Below are positions 4,557 to 11,378 of a stretch of 25,104 nt of DNA, piece by piece. Below the pieces are notes generated by a model. It had not been told where the DNA came from, searched no databases, and saw nothing but the letters and a program-made list of their open reading frames with translations. Source of the stretch: a virus. Every line of letters starts with the position of its first letter. Position 1 is the first letter of the stretch. A program made the position numbers and the translations under genes. The stretch is taken from positions 1 to 25,104 of the IMG/VR virus record IMGVR_UViG_3300043410_001535; one strand, written 5' to 3'.

Positions 4557-4565
4557 TTATCCACA
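4557..4565 (+). promoter_or_regulatory. Perfect consensus DnaA box (TTATCCACA)
   Basis: A 9/9 match to the bacterial DnaA box lies seven bases after the GapR-like stop and just upstream of the operator/promoter at 4571-4609. A second perfect box lies at 9128-9136 on the other strand. Candidate readers are host DnaA or the phage DnaA domain IV-like protein at 8302-8856. Confidence 0.7.
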
Positions 4566-5978: not shown

Positions 5979-6662
5979 GTGACTTTCAAAATAAAGAACT
6001 GGCACAAGTTCCAGCACTTCAAGGACCGTCGCCCTCCTTGGATTAAACTCTATCGTGACATTTTGGACGATGTTGACTGGCACGATCTTGATCCGCTGGC
6101 CGCAAAAACACTCATCATGCTCTGGCTTATCGCCAGTGAGAACGATGGAGATCTTCCTGATATCAGGACGATATCATTTCGTCTCAGGATGCCAGAAGCT
6201 CAAATTAAGTCACTGATTTTTAAGCTAAAACACTATTTGGATCATGATGATATCAATGCGATATCAGATCGATATCAAGCTGATACACCAGAGACAGAGA
6301 CAGAGACAGAGTCAGAGAGAGAGAAAGAGGCAGAGACAAAAACGCGCGCGGCGCGTGGAAAGTTTGATGAGTTCTGGTCCGCCTATCCGAGGAAATTGGG
6401 AATAGGAGCCGCTGAACGCGCGTGGAAAAAGGCAACCAAAGACGACGACGCAGATCGGATTATCGCCAGAGTGAAGGATTATGGATGGTCTAAAGATCCC
6501 CAATACATCCCGCATCCTGCAACGTGGCTAAATCAAAAACGCTGGCTAGATGACCCTCCTAAGCCTGCCGAGAAAAAAGAAACCCTCTCGCAATACTACG
6601 CAAGATTGGCAATGGAGGGCGAAGATATGGAGCCTAACATCCTGCAATTGAGGAAGTTCTGA
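5979..6662 (+). CDS. Phage replication initiation protein (lambda O-like layout)
   Basis: A 227-aa protein. GTG 5979 is chosen since AAGGAG is seven bases upstream and the protein then starts with KIKNWHKFQHFKDRRPPWIK, the usual N-terminus of phage replication proteins. Residues 15-85 form a winged-helix domain (LYRDILDDVDWHDLD, LWLIASEND). Residues 105-120 are a charged linker of Glu-Thr/Ser repeats. The C-terminal domain has FDEFWSAYPRK and YIPHPATWLNQKRW, as in replication proteins that contact helicase loaders. The gene contains an 11-bp iteron array, so it probably binds an origin inside its own coding sequence. Confidence 0.8.
   Translation: MTFKIKNWHKFQHFKDRRPPWIKLYRDILDDVDWHDLDPLAAKTLIMLWLIASENDGDLPDIRTISFRLRMPEAQIKSLIFKLKHYLDHDDINAISDRYQADTPETETETESEREKEAETKTRAARGKFDEFWSAYPRKLGIGAAERAWKKATKDDDADRIIARVKDYGWSKDPQYIPHPATWLNQKRWLDDPPKPAEKKETLSQYYARLAMEGEDMEPNILQLRKF
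6160..6292 (+). repeat. 11-bp iteron array, candidate replication origin
   Basis: GATATCA occurs at 6160, 6171, 6249, 6260 and 6271, and a partial copy (GATACA) at 6282. Within each cluster the period is exactly 11 bp, about one helical turn. Since 11 is not a multiple of three, successive copies fall in different reading frames and do not produce a repeated peptide, so the pattern is at DNA level. The array lies in the replication gene before the linker-coding region, as the lambda iterons do in gene O. Confidence 0.7.
6291..6337 (+). repeat. Purine-rich GAGACA microsatellite
   Basis: Three GAGACA units followed by GAGTCA and degenerate GAGA repeats, directly after the iterons. It encodes the Glu-rich linker (ETETETESEREKEAET) of the replication protein. 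The 6-nt unit would let length change without a frameshift. One strand is almost pure purine, which could ease unwinding or give unusual DNA structure. Confidence 0.8.
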
Positions 6663-6663
6663 A

Positions 6664-7221
6664 ATGGCAAGCAAAGTTCACATCCAAAAGACCATCGCCA
6701 TCTTGATCGCGGCATATCCCAGTGCCGACGCGAAGGAGAAGGAGGCCATGGCTCCATTTTTGAGAATGGTTGAGCAGATGATGCTGCCCTATCCTGAGAG
6801 GGTTCTCTCAGAGTTGGTAAATTCACGCATTGGGATCATTGCTACGTCGAAGTTCTTCCCTTCGATTGCTGAACTCAAGCAGTTTTGTGATCGTTTGTGG
6901 GATAAGCTTGATCCACAGGTTCAAGTCGATCGCGCTCCAGATCCCTTGATGCTTGGGGGGCCTGCCAAAGATCCTGAGGTAGAAGCTGCTCAGAGGGCTT
7001 GCATCATTCAAGGCTTCAAGGATCTGCTTGCGGAACTGAAGTCTGTTCCTGATCCCCTGCGGCCAAACCAGCCGCCGCCAAAGTCCAAGGTTGAGGAAAA
7101 GGCTGAGGCTGAAGCTTGGCTGGAAAGACAGGCGGAACGGGCAAAGACTGATCCGTTGCCGAAGCTTTCAGAGTCCGCGCTTAAGGCCTTTCACAATCCA
7201 CTGTCGGGGAGGACGATATGA
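6664..7221 (+). CDS. Putative replication accessory protein, 185 aa
   Basis: Starts one base after the replication protein stop, with GAGGA upstream inside that gene. The N-terminal half has helices with IAILIAAYPSADAKEKEAMA and IGIIATSKFFPSIAELKQF. The latter, a FFPSIAE motif near the end of a helical domain, is typical of proteins encoded just after O-like genes, some of which act as helicase loaders (lambda P-like). The C-terminal half is Pro- and Glu-rich and probably flexible. No Walker motif is present, so it is not a DnaC-type ATPase. The loader role is inferred from position. Confidence 0.6.
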   Translation: MASKVHIQKTIAILIAAYPSADAKEKEAMAPFLRMVEQMMLPYPERVLSELVNSRIGIIATSKFFPSIAELKQFCDRLWDKLDPQVQVDRAPDPLMLGGPAKDPEVEAAQRACIIQGFKDLLAELKSVPDPLRPNQPPPKSKVEEKAEAEAWLERQAERAKTDPLPKLSESALKAFHNPLSGRTI

Positions 7222-8090: not shown

Positions 8091-8140
8091 GGTCCGAAGC
8101 CTACAAAAAATTTTGTGAAACAATAAACCGCCCGGAGTGA
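7964..8140 (+). CDS. Small zinc-finger protein, 58 aa, overlapping the HNH gene
   Basis: A 58-aa ORF starting at ATG 7964 within the HNH-like gene and running 50 nt beyond it. It has a clean CxxC...CxxxC pair (ACVECNELFGKY, then RFCSVSCRLRFHNRM), like the zinc ribbons of the MYM or DUF2116 type found in many small phage proteins. GGGAG lies about nine bases upstream of the start. Its stop is three bases before the next ATG, and GGAG of that gene lies in its last codons. The complete Zn pair and spacing argue that it is real even though it shares 127 nt with the HNH frame. Confidence 0.6.
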   Translation: MAKRTKDREIKACVECNELFGKYRPSQRFCSVSCRLRFHNRMRSEAYKKFCETINRPE

Positions 8141-8143
8141 ACC

Positions 8144-8305
8144 ATGCCCACGGAGCTTCTAATCGCGATTGTGCTATTCGGCGTCATTCCGATGGGACTG
8201 ATGCTTGCCGCTGCGGTCATGGCTTATTGGTGGCCACCGCAGAACGATCCATACACCGACCCCGCCAACTGGGGATCTCAAGATGTCGATGGGAGAAAAG
8301 AATGA
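8144..8305 (+). CDS. Small single-pass membrane protein, 53 aa
   Basis: ATG 8144 has GGAG six bases upstream. Residues 4-28 form one strong membrane helix (ELLIAIVLFGVIPMGLMLAA, then AVMAYWW), followed by a polar tail rich in Pro, Asp and Asn (PPQNDPYTDPANWGSQDVDG). No signal-peptidase site is obvious, so it is probably anchored with the tail in the cytoplasm or periplasm. Its stop overlaps the DnaA-like start (ATGA), so the two are likely co-translated. The role is unknown; superinfection exclusion and membrane tethering of replication are both possible but unsupported. Confidence 0.7.
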   Translation: MPTELLIAIVLFGVIPMGLMLAAAVMAYWWPPQNDPYTDPANWGSQDVDGRKE

Positions 8306-8856
8306 TTGCCAAGTTTAACTCTGCAGAAGATCTGCTTGCTCACTACGCGACCGTCCGCGCCCGCATAGGCGCCCCAACTAAGGGGCCAACAATCAACTGG
8401 CAAGCGATGCAGGTCAAAAAAAAGAAAGAGAAGGTGGCCGAAGTGAAGGAAAAGCCCGCACCCGTTATCGCCCAGCCTGTGGTTCGCATGCCAGCGGTTC
8501 CAATTAACCCAAACGATGTCCGCATTACGTTTGAAGAGGTGGTTTCTCTGGTCTGTTTGCGTACCGGATACCATCGTCGGGAAATCTTTGCGCCTCGCCG
8601 CAAACAGGATCTTTGCTTCAGCCGTCAGCTCGCTTGGGCATTAGCTCGCAAGTTTTGCAATCACATGAGCCTGCCTCAGATAGGCCGAGCATCAGGCGGT
8701 AAAGATCACACTACGATTCTTCACGGCTGCAAAAAGGGGGTCAAACATCCTGCTTATCAGATCCTCAATGATGAGTTGGAGGAAATGTACAATCAGAAAT
8801 TCGCCGCAAATTTGGCGCTGATCGAGCAAGCCGAATTGGAAAAAGAGGGGGTTTGA
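8302..8856 (+). CDS. DnaA domain IV-like DNA-binding protein
   Basis: From ATG 8302 (GGGAG upstream, overlapping the membrane-protein stop), 184 aa. Residues 75-150 match DnaA domain IV: RREIFAPRRKQDLCFSRQLA, a WALARKFCNHMSLPQIGRA helix, and the signature GGKDHTTILHGCKK (132-145), which in DnaA contacts the TTATCCACA box. There is no AAA+ domain; the N-terminal 70 residues are a Lys/Glu/Pro-rich linker. It may therefore occupy DnaA boxes without DnaA's ATPase activity, acting as a competitor, repressor or initiator aid. Two perfect boxes exist in this window. A GC hairpin follows the stop. Confidence 0.85.
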   Translation: MIAKFNSAEDLLAHYATVRARIGAPTKGPTINWQAMQVKKKKEKVAEVKEKPAPVIAQPVVRMPAVPINPNDVRITFEEVVSLVCLRTGYHRREIFAPRRKQDLCFSRQLAWALARKFCNHMSLPQIGRASGGKDHTTILHGCKKGVKHPAYQILNDELEEMYNQKFAANLALIEQAELEKEGV

Positions 8857-9259: not shown

Positions 9260-10186
9260 ATGACTGCATTGCAATTGAAAAATCCGCCGCAGCGGTTTTT
9301 TACCCCCGGCCAATCCTTGGAAGAACAGATCCTCGTGCTGGACACGTTGATCGATACTGCTCCATCGGATTCCGCTCGCACTTACACGATCAGCCCTGAG
9401 TTGGCTGAACACATCTTAAAGACCCGCAATGGCGCTAATCGCAAGCCTAACGCTCGCAAGGTGGATGAATACGTTCATGCCATGAAGACCAAGCGCTGGC
9501 CTGTCACTGGCTCGACGATCGTCTTCAGCAAGTCAGGGTATTTGCTCGACGGTCAGCACCGGCTTCTTGCCTGCGCTCGCGCTAAAGTGCCATTGACGAC
9601 ATTTGTGGCGTTCAACATCTCCGATGGCTCGTTCGCTATGATCGACATTGGTCGTAAGCGCAGCAATGTGGACGCCTTTACGATCCAGCGTGTGCCTCAT
9701 CCCGGAGTGGCATCCTCTGCTGCTCGTTGGGTGATGATCCACGAGAACGATCCGTTGAATCGGGGCGTCACCTATACGAACGACGACCTGTTCAACTACT
9801 TCAAGGCAAACCTCGACGGTCCGCTGTTCCATGCGGCGGTTACTGCTGCGGTGGCGATCGAGAAAGCTGGCAAGGATCGTCTGTCTGGTGGCGCTCGCCG
9901 GAACTATCTTCCGGCTGGCTCTATGGCTGCGTATTTGCTGATCTTCAGCAAGGTGAATCGCAAGCATGCCGGGGCCTTCGCTGACCAGCTTCTGAACAAC
10001 CAGCGTCATGGTCGGGCATACATCCAAGCTATCAAGGACCGCATGGATGCCAATGGTGGTCGCCTCCACGAGGCTGTCCGCAATGCGCTGCTGGTGCAAG
10101 CTTGGAACGCTTTCCGTCAGGATGTGCGGCCCAGCAAGGCGATATTTACATGGAACCTATCTGGCGATTTCCCAGAGGTTCGCTAA
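9260..10186 (+). CDS. DGQHR/ParB-like nuclease-fold protein
   Basis: A 308-aa protein with D97-G-Q-H-R101 in SGYLLDGQHRLLACARAK, the hallmark of the ParB/sulfiredoxin-like fold that binds nucleotides or DNA. It is preceded by a basic helix (KPNARKVDEYVHAMKTKRW) and followed by an all-helical C-terminal half with DIGRKRSNVDAFTIQR and a YFKANLDGPLFHAA helix. Such proteins are common in phages next to methylases, but their activity is poorly known. AGGAG is eight bases before ATG 9260. The neighbouring gene has a related DGRHR domain fused to a methyltransferase. Confidence 0.75.
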   Translation: MTALQLKNPPQRFFTPGQSLEEQILVLDTLIDTAPSDSARTYTISPELAEHILKTRNGANRKPNARKVDEYVHAMKTKRWPVTGSTIVFSKSGYLLDGQHRLLACARAKVPLTTFVAFNISDGSFAMIDIGRKRSNVDAFTIQRVPHPGVASSAARWVMIHENDPLNRGVTYTNDDLFNYFKANLDGPLFHAAVTAAVAIEKAGKDRLSGGARRNYLPAGSMAAYLLIFSKVNRKHAGAFADQLLNNQRHGRAYIQAIKDRMDANGGRLHEAVRNALLVQAWNAFRQDVRPSKAIFTWNLSGDFPEVR

Positions 10187-10194
10187 AGCATCAA

Positions 10195-10216
10195 GGGGGC
10201 GCTTCATAGCGTCCCC
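10195..10216 (+). terminator. Strong hairpin between the ParB-like genes
   Basis: GGGGGCGCT (10195-10203), loop TCAT, AGCGTCCCC (10208-10216) gives nine pairs with one G-U. GTTAACTTA follows, not a T run, so it may be an attenuator or RNA-stability element rather than a full terminator. Confidence 0.45.
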
Positions 10217-10235
10217 GTTAACTTAGGGGGATGAT

Positions 10236-11378
10236 ATGGAATACGATATACACGAGCTTTGCAGTCTGTTTCCGTTGATGCCGCAGGACCAGTTCGATGC
10301 ACTGGCTGACGACATGCGCGCCAATGGGCAGCGAAACCCGATCACGCTTTACGAGGGCAAGATCCTCGATGGCCGTCACCGCTACAAGGCTTGCATCAAT
10401 CTCGGGCTGGAGCCACTGATTACGCACTTCGAGGGTGAAGACGCCCTTGGCTTCGTGATCAGTCATAACCTGACGCGCAGGCATCTGGACGAATCGCAGA
10501 GGGCTATGATCGCTGCCAAGCTTGCCAACTTGAAGGACGGTCAGCGGAAATCTTCAGGTGCATCAATTGGAGCACCTCGCACGGAAGTCAGTCAGATAGA
10601 CGCCGCCAACAAGATGGGCGTTGGCCGCATGTCAGTGCAGAGAGCCAAGAAAGTTTTGGACAAGGGGACGCCGGAACTGGCTCAAGCTGTTGAGTCTGGG
10701 CAGATTGCTGTCTCGGTCGCCGCTAAGATCGCCGAGATGGAGCCAGAACAGCAGGCGCAAATTATCGCTGACCCTAAGCCTGAACAGGCTATCAAGAAGG
10801 TTGCTCGGCAGGAAAAAGAACAGGCGCTCGCAGACAGAACCATTCAGCAATCCTTGCAGGCGACAACCAAGCTGTATGGGGTGATCTACGCTGACCCGCC
10901 ATGGAAGTATGAGACGTTCTCTGAGAATGGGATGGACCGCAGCGCGGATAACCACTACCCCACTATGAGCATGTTCGACATGCTTGCTATGAGCATCCCT
11001 GCGGCAGACAACTGCGTGATGTTCATGTGGGCTACTGTCCCCATGCTCCCAGAAGCAATCGACCTTATGTCCACATGGGGCTTCGACTATAAGTCGCACA
11101 TCTGTTGGATCAAGGATCGCATTGGCACCGGCTACTGGACCCGTAACAAGCACGAGCTGCTACTGATCGGAACCAAGGGCAATGTCCCCGCTCCAGCCAT
11201 GGGCACCCAGCCGCCATCGGTCATCGAACTCCCTCTCGGTCGCCACAGCGAAAAGCCAGCATTCTTCGCGGATATGATCTCGACATTATACCCGACGACT
11301 CCCAAGTTGGAGATGTTCGCTCGCATTGGTCGTGTGGGCTGGGATGTCATGGGCAACGAGGCCCCAGACGATGACTGA
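10236..11378 (+). CDS. ParB-like domain fused to MT-A70 adenine methyltransferase
   Basis: A 380-aa protein with two domains. Residues 1-120 are ParB-like with D45-G-R-H-R49 (ILDGRHRYKACINLGL) and a downstream HTH-like part (DAANKMGVGRMSVQRAKKVL). Residues 210-375 are an MT-A70 type methylase: D220-PPW in VIYADPPWKYETF, the DPPW motif for N6-adenine methylation. SAM-fold elements follow (FMWATVPMLPEAIDLM, KHELLLIGTKG). The family modifies adenine in DNA and often occurs with ParB-like domains in phages, probably to protect the genome from restriction. GGGGG precedes the start. Its end overlaps the next gene by 8 nt. Confidence 0.92.
   Translation: MEYDIHELCSLFPLMPQDQFDALADDMRANGQRNPITLYEGKILDGRHRYKACINLGLEPLITHFEGEDALGFVISHNLTRRHLDESQRAMIAAKLANLKDGQRKSSGASIGAPRTEVSQIDAANKMGVGRMSVQRAKKVLDKGTPELAQAVESGQIAVSVAAKIAEMEPEQQAQIIADPKPEQAIKKVARQEKEQALADRTIQQSLQATTKLYGVIYADPPWKYETFSENGMDRSADNHYPTMSMFDMLAMSIPAADNCVMFMWATVPMLPEAIDLMSTWGFDYKSHICWIKDRIGTGYWTRNKHELLLIGTKGNVPAPAMGTQPPSVIELPLGRHSEKPAFFADMISTLYPTTPKLEMFARIGRVGWDVMGNEAPDDD

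Follow-up and report, generated by a model that had tools for sequence, protein, structure and literature searches.

The window (the whole stretch of viral DNA that was analyzed, 25,104 bp) carries at positions 5979..6662, on the plus strand, a GTG-initiated gene for a 227-aa protein, Rep, which we assign as a replication initiator from its PHROG matches: residues 3-168 match PHROG 26426 (replication protein), and residues 100-201 match PHROGs 270 and 9327. The AlphaFold2 model of Rep (mean pLDDT 84) has a helix-turn-helix-like N-terminal domain extending to about residue 90 and a C-terminal domain beyond a linker and a helix. The N-terminal domain (residues 1-90, FQHF family, 5979..6248, plus strand) is predicted to be a winged-helix DNA-binding domain, with helices at residues 62-69 and 73-82 followed by a strand at 87-89 (pLDDT about 90), and the C-terminal domain (phrog_270/9327 type from its PHROG matches; 6345..6659, plus strand) presumably contacts a helicase or helicase loader. 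Neither a PDB sequence search nor a fold search with Rep gave a significant match, and no Pfam family matched it above the cut-off. This last point distinguishes Rep from the DnaD-like helicase loaders and phage replisome organizers, with which it shares the winged helix, a presumed loader-contact domain and a weak match to PHROG 186; a DnaD model was also its top, non-significant, Foldseek match in the PDB. The next gene (6664..7221, plus strand; phrog_9804, function unknown) may encode a helicase loader, judging by its position only, and the genes downstream of rep in several relatives match P-like loaders, DnaC or helicases, some of them weakly. Further along the window, 8137-8856 encodes a phage protein with the DnaA C-terminal DNA-binding domain only (PF08299, E = 2e-18), and 10236-11378 encodes a ParB-like domain fused to an MT-A70 DNA methyltransferase.

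An exact-match search of the window identified five copies of GATATCA within rep, beginning at 6159 and 6170 and at 6249, 6260 and 6271, and a degenerate copy, GATACA, that begins at 6282. The first-pass annotation had placed the first two copies one base too high (6160 and 6171) but had correctly located the other three and the partial copy at 6282. Its claim of an exact 11-bp spacing within each cluster agrees with the exact-match positions, and the distance between the clusters, which it gave as 78 bp, is 79 bp from start to start (6170 to 6249), with a gap of 72 bp. All copies are confined to 120 bp; outside the five array positions the heptamer is absent from both strands of the window, and its two minus-strand matches are the palindrome TGATATCA at 6158 and 6248. 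The main array, as defined by exact matches and by conservation in homologues, consists of iteron 1 (6249..6255, palindrome TGATATCA), iteron 2 (6260..6266), iteron 3 (6271..6277) and the half copy, iteron 4 (6282..6287), all on the plus strand. Every iteron core lies within a palindrome, being either TGATATCA or a GATATC core preceded by C; the palindromes read TGATATCA or CGATATCA in the window and TGNTANCA across the two main classes of relatives described below. When the codons of rep were shuffled synonymously, GATATCA occurred on average 0.62 times, and neither five copies nor three 11-bp-spaced pairs arose in any of 20,000 trials (0/20,000 for each).

The main array was present in 11 of 11 loci from an initial protein search, some with one degenerate copy. 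As a control for bias, we limited the alignment to residues before the array, which gave at least 542 relatives. We kept 80 of these, representing 72 distinct sequences; the alignment was seeded from array-carrying phages, but the scan patterns drew on different regions of the protein. In this protein-selected sample, 71 of the 72 distinct homologues carried all three copies at a strict 11-bp spacing, matching in at least 5 of 7 bases. The fourth lattice position was GAT in 69 of the 72, and AGAG followed in 70. A scan of viral contigs by DNA alone found the triple repeat in at least 120 stretches, and 108 of the matches listed lay in the rep family (E < 1e-5). The same scan of bacterial genomes returned at least 110 stretches, with 3 of the matches listed in the rep family.

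We then compared codon choice at fixed amino acids in 41 representatives. Synonymous identity in the iteron codons was 0.90-1.00 versus 0.19-0.58 under the codon-shuffle null (z mostly 9-32), whereas most codons of the N-terminal domain were near the null. Relatedness inflates z in some columns, an effect that is common to the whole gene and for which the gene itself serves as the internal control. Some constraint at the DNA level already sets in about 27 bp upstream of iteron 1, within a block at 6222..6248 (plus strand) that reads AAG...TCTCATTGG...GAACAA in homologues. The homologue comparison proposed in the first-pass annotation thus came out in favor of its reading, with spacing kept and synonymous sites elsewhere variable, for the main array and for the purine-rich tract that follows it. 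Homologues lacking the repeats at normal divergence, the outcome that would have counted against that reading, did not appear: the array is retained in 71 of 72 distinct close homologues, and a concerted replacement heptamer occurs in 43 distant ones. We conclude that the main array (6249-6287) and the tract are conserved as DNA. The arrangement recurs in well over 100 related phage sequences, in at least two interchangeable DNA spellings.

The first pair is a different matter. The two-cluster array described in the first-pass annotation holds for the main array, but the pair at 6159 and 6170 (6159..6176, plus strand) is missing in nearly all homologues and is essentially private to this phage. 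Both of its sites recur in 0.4% of synonymous codon shuffles, which is weaker than the result for the full array, and among the 41 representatives an upstream GATATCA occurred as a single copy in 4 others and as a pair in none. A subclade (L033, L041, L106, L111 and L121) has an 11-bp-spaced pair near codon 30 that displaces an otherwise conserved peptide; accessory pairs may therefore have evolved repeatedly. We regard the 6159/6170 pair as putative accessory iterons.

In more divergent relatives, among them Iodobacter phage PhiPLPE (gp04) and record MW202481, all three copies jointly become GCTAGCA-like in the same codon register, at 11 bp and followed by a purine tract; the half copy becomes GCT in many of these relatives, and one small group has GTCTAGA copies. 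We assigned 141 sequences to a GAT class (84), a GCT class (43, of which 7, L339-L345, rest on two clear copies only) and a TCT class (4), leaving 10 unassigned. The best period was 11 bp in 69 of 69 GAT-class and 27 of 33 GCT-class sequences. These data bear on whether a conserved linker peptide (DDINxISxxYQxD and a Glu-rich helix) could account for the DNA repeats. Within the GATATCA class the encoded peptide does show fair conservation, but its synonymous codons are frozen, and the three main copies occupy all three reading frames relative to the GTG at 5979, as the first-pass annotation had noted in dismissing a peptide repeat. Moreover, in the distant relatives the peptide changes to DASTxLA... 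exactly as GATATC changes to GCTAGC. Since the copies change jointly and in the same register, the DNA site drives the peptide rather than the reverse, and a peptide-level explanation, already contradicted, deserves practically no credence. The class of the array also follows residue 14 of the initiator, which is Phe in 30 of 30 GAT-class and Tyr in 13 of 13 GCT-class representatives. Residue 14 may mark binding specificity; because the tree permits a single switch, the correlation may stem from one ancestral change and is not proof. The PhiPLPE N-terminal domain, used as a scan query, retrieved zero relatives.

The array is followed by a purine-rich AGAGNN tract (6288..6339, plus strand), whose purine content peaks at 87% and whose AT content is about 54%. 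In the AlphaFold2 model, the array encodes a low-confidence (disordered) linker between the domains and the tract encodes a helix. The tract had been described in the first-pass annotation as a purine-rich linker just after the array; it is indeed there, but it is not merely linker, as both codon identity and codon usage indicate constraint on the DNA. In the 41 representatives, identity at the tract's Glu and Thr codons was 0.86-1.00 versus a null of 0.19-0.58. Glu was encoded by GAG in 172 of 180 cases versus 190 of 533 elsewhere, Thr by ACA (113/113), Arg by AGA (31/31) and Ile by ATA (11/11), and the third position was A in 21 of 22 Leu codons, 4 of 4 Val codons and all Pro codons. Lys was the exception (third-position A in 22 of 37, vs. 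0.56 expected).

The tract is also where relatives exchange domains. The N-terminal domain is one family across 77 homologues, while the C-terminal domains represent several PHROG families and form six groups at E 1e-5, some of the swapped ones matching O-like PHROGs 345 and 678. Sequence comparison indicates that C-terminal domains are swapped between phages, with one breakpoint in the purine tract: the N-terminal domains of L295 and L310 share 97% identity, and the DNA identity of the two falls from 0.97 over the array to 0.77 and then to about 0.5 inside the tract. Such a breakpoint would suit a passive tract that plays no part in the origin and is only a slippage repeat or a junction for recombination, with the iterons alone mattering, and slippage can expand hexamer repeats. 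Slippage alone, however, predicts poorly that third-position A in Arg, Ile, Leu and Val codons and GAG for Glu are retained, and we consider a passive tract, which would be compatible with an iteron origin, possible but rather unlikely. The minus strand at 2330-2989 encodes an annealing protein of the Rad52 family (PF04098, E = 4e-37) that might drive the exchange of modules.

A nearest-neighbor stability scan of the whole window found its least stable 50-bp segment at 6203..6252, which starts between the two iteron clusters and is a candidate unwinding element. Averaged over 41 homologues, the instability of the region from -90 to +40 of the array ranked in the 81st-93rd percentile. The first-pass annotation had also suggested computing GC skew. 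The cumulative minimum in the window falls at 6133, but the turn averaged over the loci of relatives is about 1 kb upstream of the array and coincides with a divergent promoter, so skew alone cannot place the origin; it is compatible with an origin at the array and is weak support, confounded with gene direction. Two other signals were rejected: the two perfect DnaA boxes (TTATCCACA) at 4557 and 9128 are at chance level and away from the array, and RNA structure over 6210-6340 was unconvincing (z = -1.8).

Taken with its location inside an initiator gene, the conservation of array and tract as DNA supports the proposal of the first-pass annotation that the array is the phage origin, and we consider it highly probable that 6249-6339 is a lambda-type intragenic replication origin. 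From this arrangement we infer the following sequence of events. Copies of Rep would bind the three palindromic sites and the half copy through the N-terminal winged-helix domain; because 11 bp is about one helical turn, all of them would lie on the same side of the double helix. The complex would then open the adjoining weak DNA at 6203-6252, the tract at 6288-6339 or both, the AGAGNN strand of the tract might be held single-stranded, and the exchangeable C-terminal domain would recruit a helicase loader or helicase.

In lambda-type origins, which occupy the middle of gene O, 19-bp iterons that are imperfect inverted repeats are combined with an AT-rich tract (PMC7466680). Like the origins of lambda and of the Stx phages P27 and 933W, the array described here has dyad-symmetric iterons in mid-initiator gene, to which Rep would bind, and low-stability DNA adjoining them (PMC7466680). 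In lambda the loader gene lies downstream (PMC7466680), and the counterpart by position in the window is the phrog_9804 gene. Lambda has four 19-bp iterons and the Stx phages have six, whereas here there are three and a half copy with a short palindrome and 11-bp spacing. The AT-rich tract of lambda is distal to the iterons, whereas here the AT-rich stretch is upstream and the downstream tract is purine-rich and, unlike the opening region of lambda, not AT-rich. The parallel with lambda drawn in the first-pass annotation therefore holds for iterons at an inter-domain linker, conserved DNA and adjoining weak DNA, but not for a downstream AT-rich tract, and we therefore class the locus as lambda-like in its working rather than as a strict member. 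The N-terminal domain of Rep, unlike lambda O, belongs to PHROG 26426, not to an O-like PHROG, and matches no solved structure by sequence. Our best reading is that the array works like the lambda origin, a statement about its working rather than about membership in the O family.

The same heptamer at the same spacing occurs in bacteria. GATATCA-like 11-bp triples lie immediately upstream of SPFH/band-7-like membrane protein genes (assigned by eye from their sequence) in Lachnospiraceae, Brevibacillus, Planctomycetes, Bacteroides and others (L135, L147, L157, L164, L172, L196, L206, L133, L240, L208 and further loci), where they are probably a widespread kind of operator. These triples are intergenic and, unlike the phage array, are accompanied neither by an initiator homologue nor by a purine tract. 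An Aeromonas tecta contig (L143) has a long GATATCA run at 11-bp spacing, also outside the rep family. Given these bacterial triples, the DNA motif is not diagnostic by itself, and the phage array might likewise serve Rep or another regulator as an operator for transcriptional control, all the more as replication initiators often autoregulate. The phage array, however, is found 270 bp into the coding sequence, which is no promoter position, is inherited together with the initiator's DNA-binding domain, and has a second DNA-constrained tract after it and, beside it, the weakest DNA in the window. We therefore regard an operator as improbable. Less probable still is that the array is a centromere-like site for the partition of a plasmid prophage. 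ParR of plasmid R1 binds 11-bp repeats, and ParB-like genes are present in the window at 9260-11378, but no par gene is adjacent to the array, which in homologues accompanies the replication initiator, its heptamer class tracking the initiator's N-terminal domain.

If the origin reading is right, it predicts at base resolution the origins, apparently unannotated, of a large and mostly uncultured phage group (at least 542 relatives). Proteins of PHROG 26426 from Iodobacter phage PhiPLPE (gp04), Xanthomonas phage PBR31 (orf4) and Limnohabitans phage DC33 share the N-terminal family and have an array at the same place, and their records annotate only a replication or hypothetical protein, with no origin feature on the array; PhiPLPE and MW202481 have GCTAGCA-class iterons, unlike the GATATCA of the window. 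In a literature search that was not exhaustive, we found no description of such an origin and no link between GATATCA and phage iterons, the sole co-mention concerning a plant virus. More tentatively, and with the odds against it, these phages may represent an undescribed large origin family, in which the initiator's DNA-binding domain and a palindromic array spaced at one helical turn (GATATCA, GCTAGCA and possibly GTCTAGA) are inherited as a unit, helicase-recruiting domains are exchanged at the tract, and opening relies on a single-strand element with the specific sequence AGAGNN in place of an AT-rich region. Whether helicase-recruiting domains are exchanged at the origin while origin and binding domain stay together is a testable question, and related initiator pairs with different predicted DNA specificity, together with the marker residue Phe/Tyr14, offer a specificity that can be swapped and tested. 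The DC33 record (L323, PQ492659.1), a 39-kb genome with this rep family, is filed under Inoviridae, a taxonomy that looks wrong.
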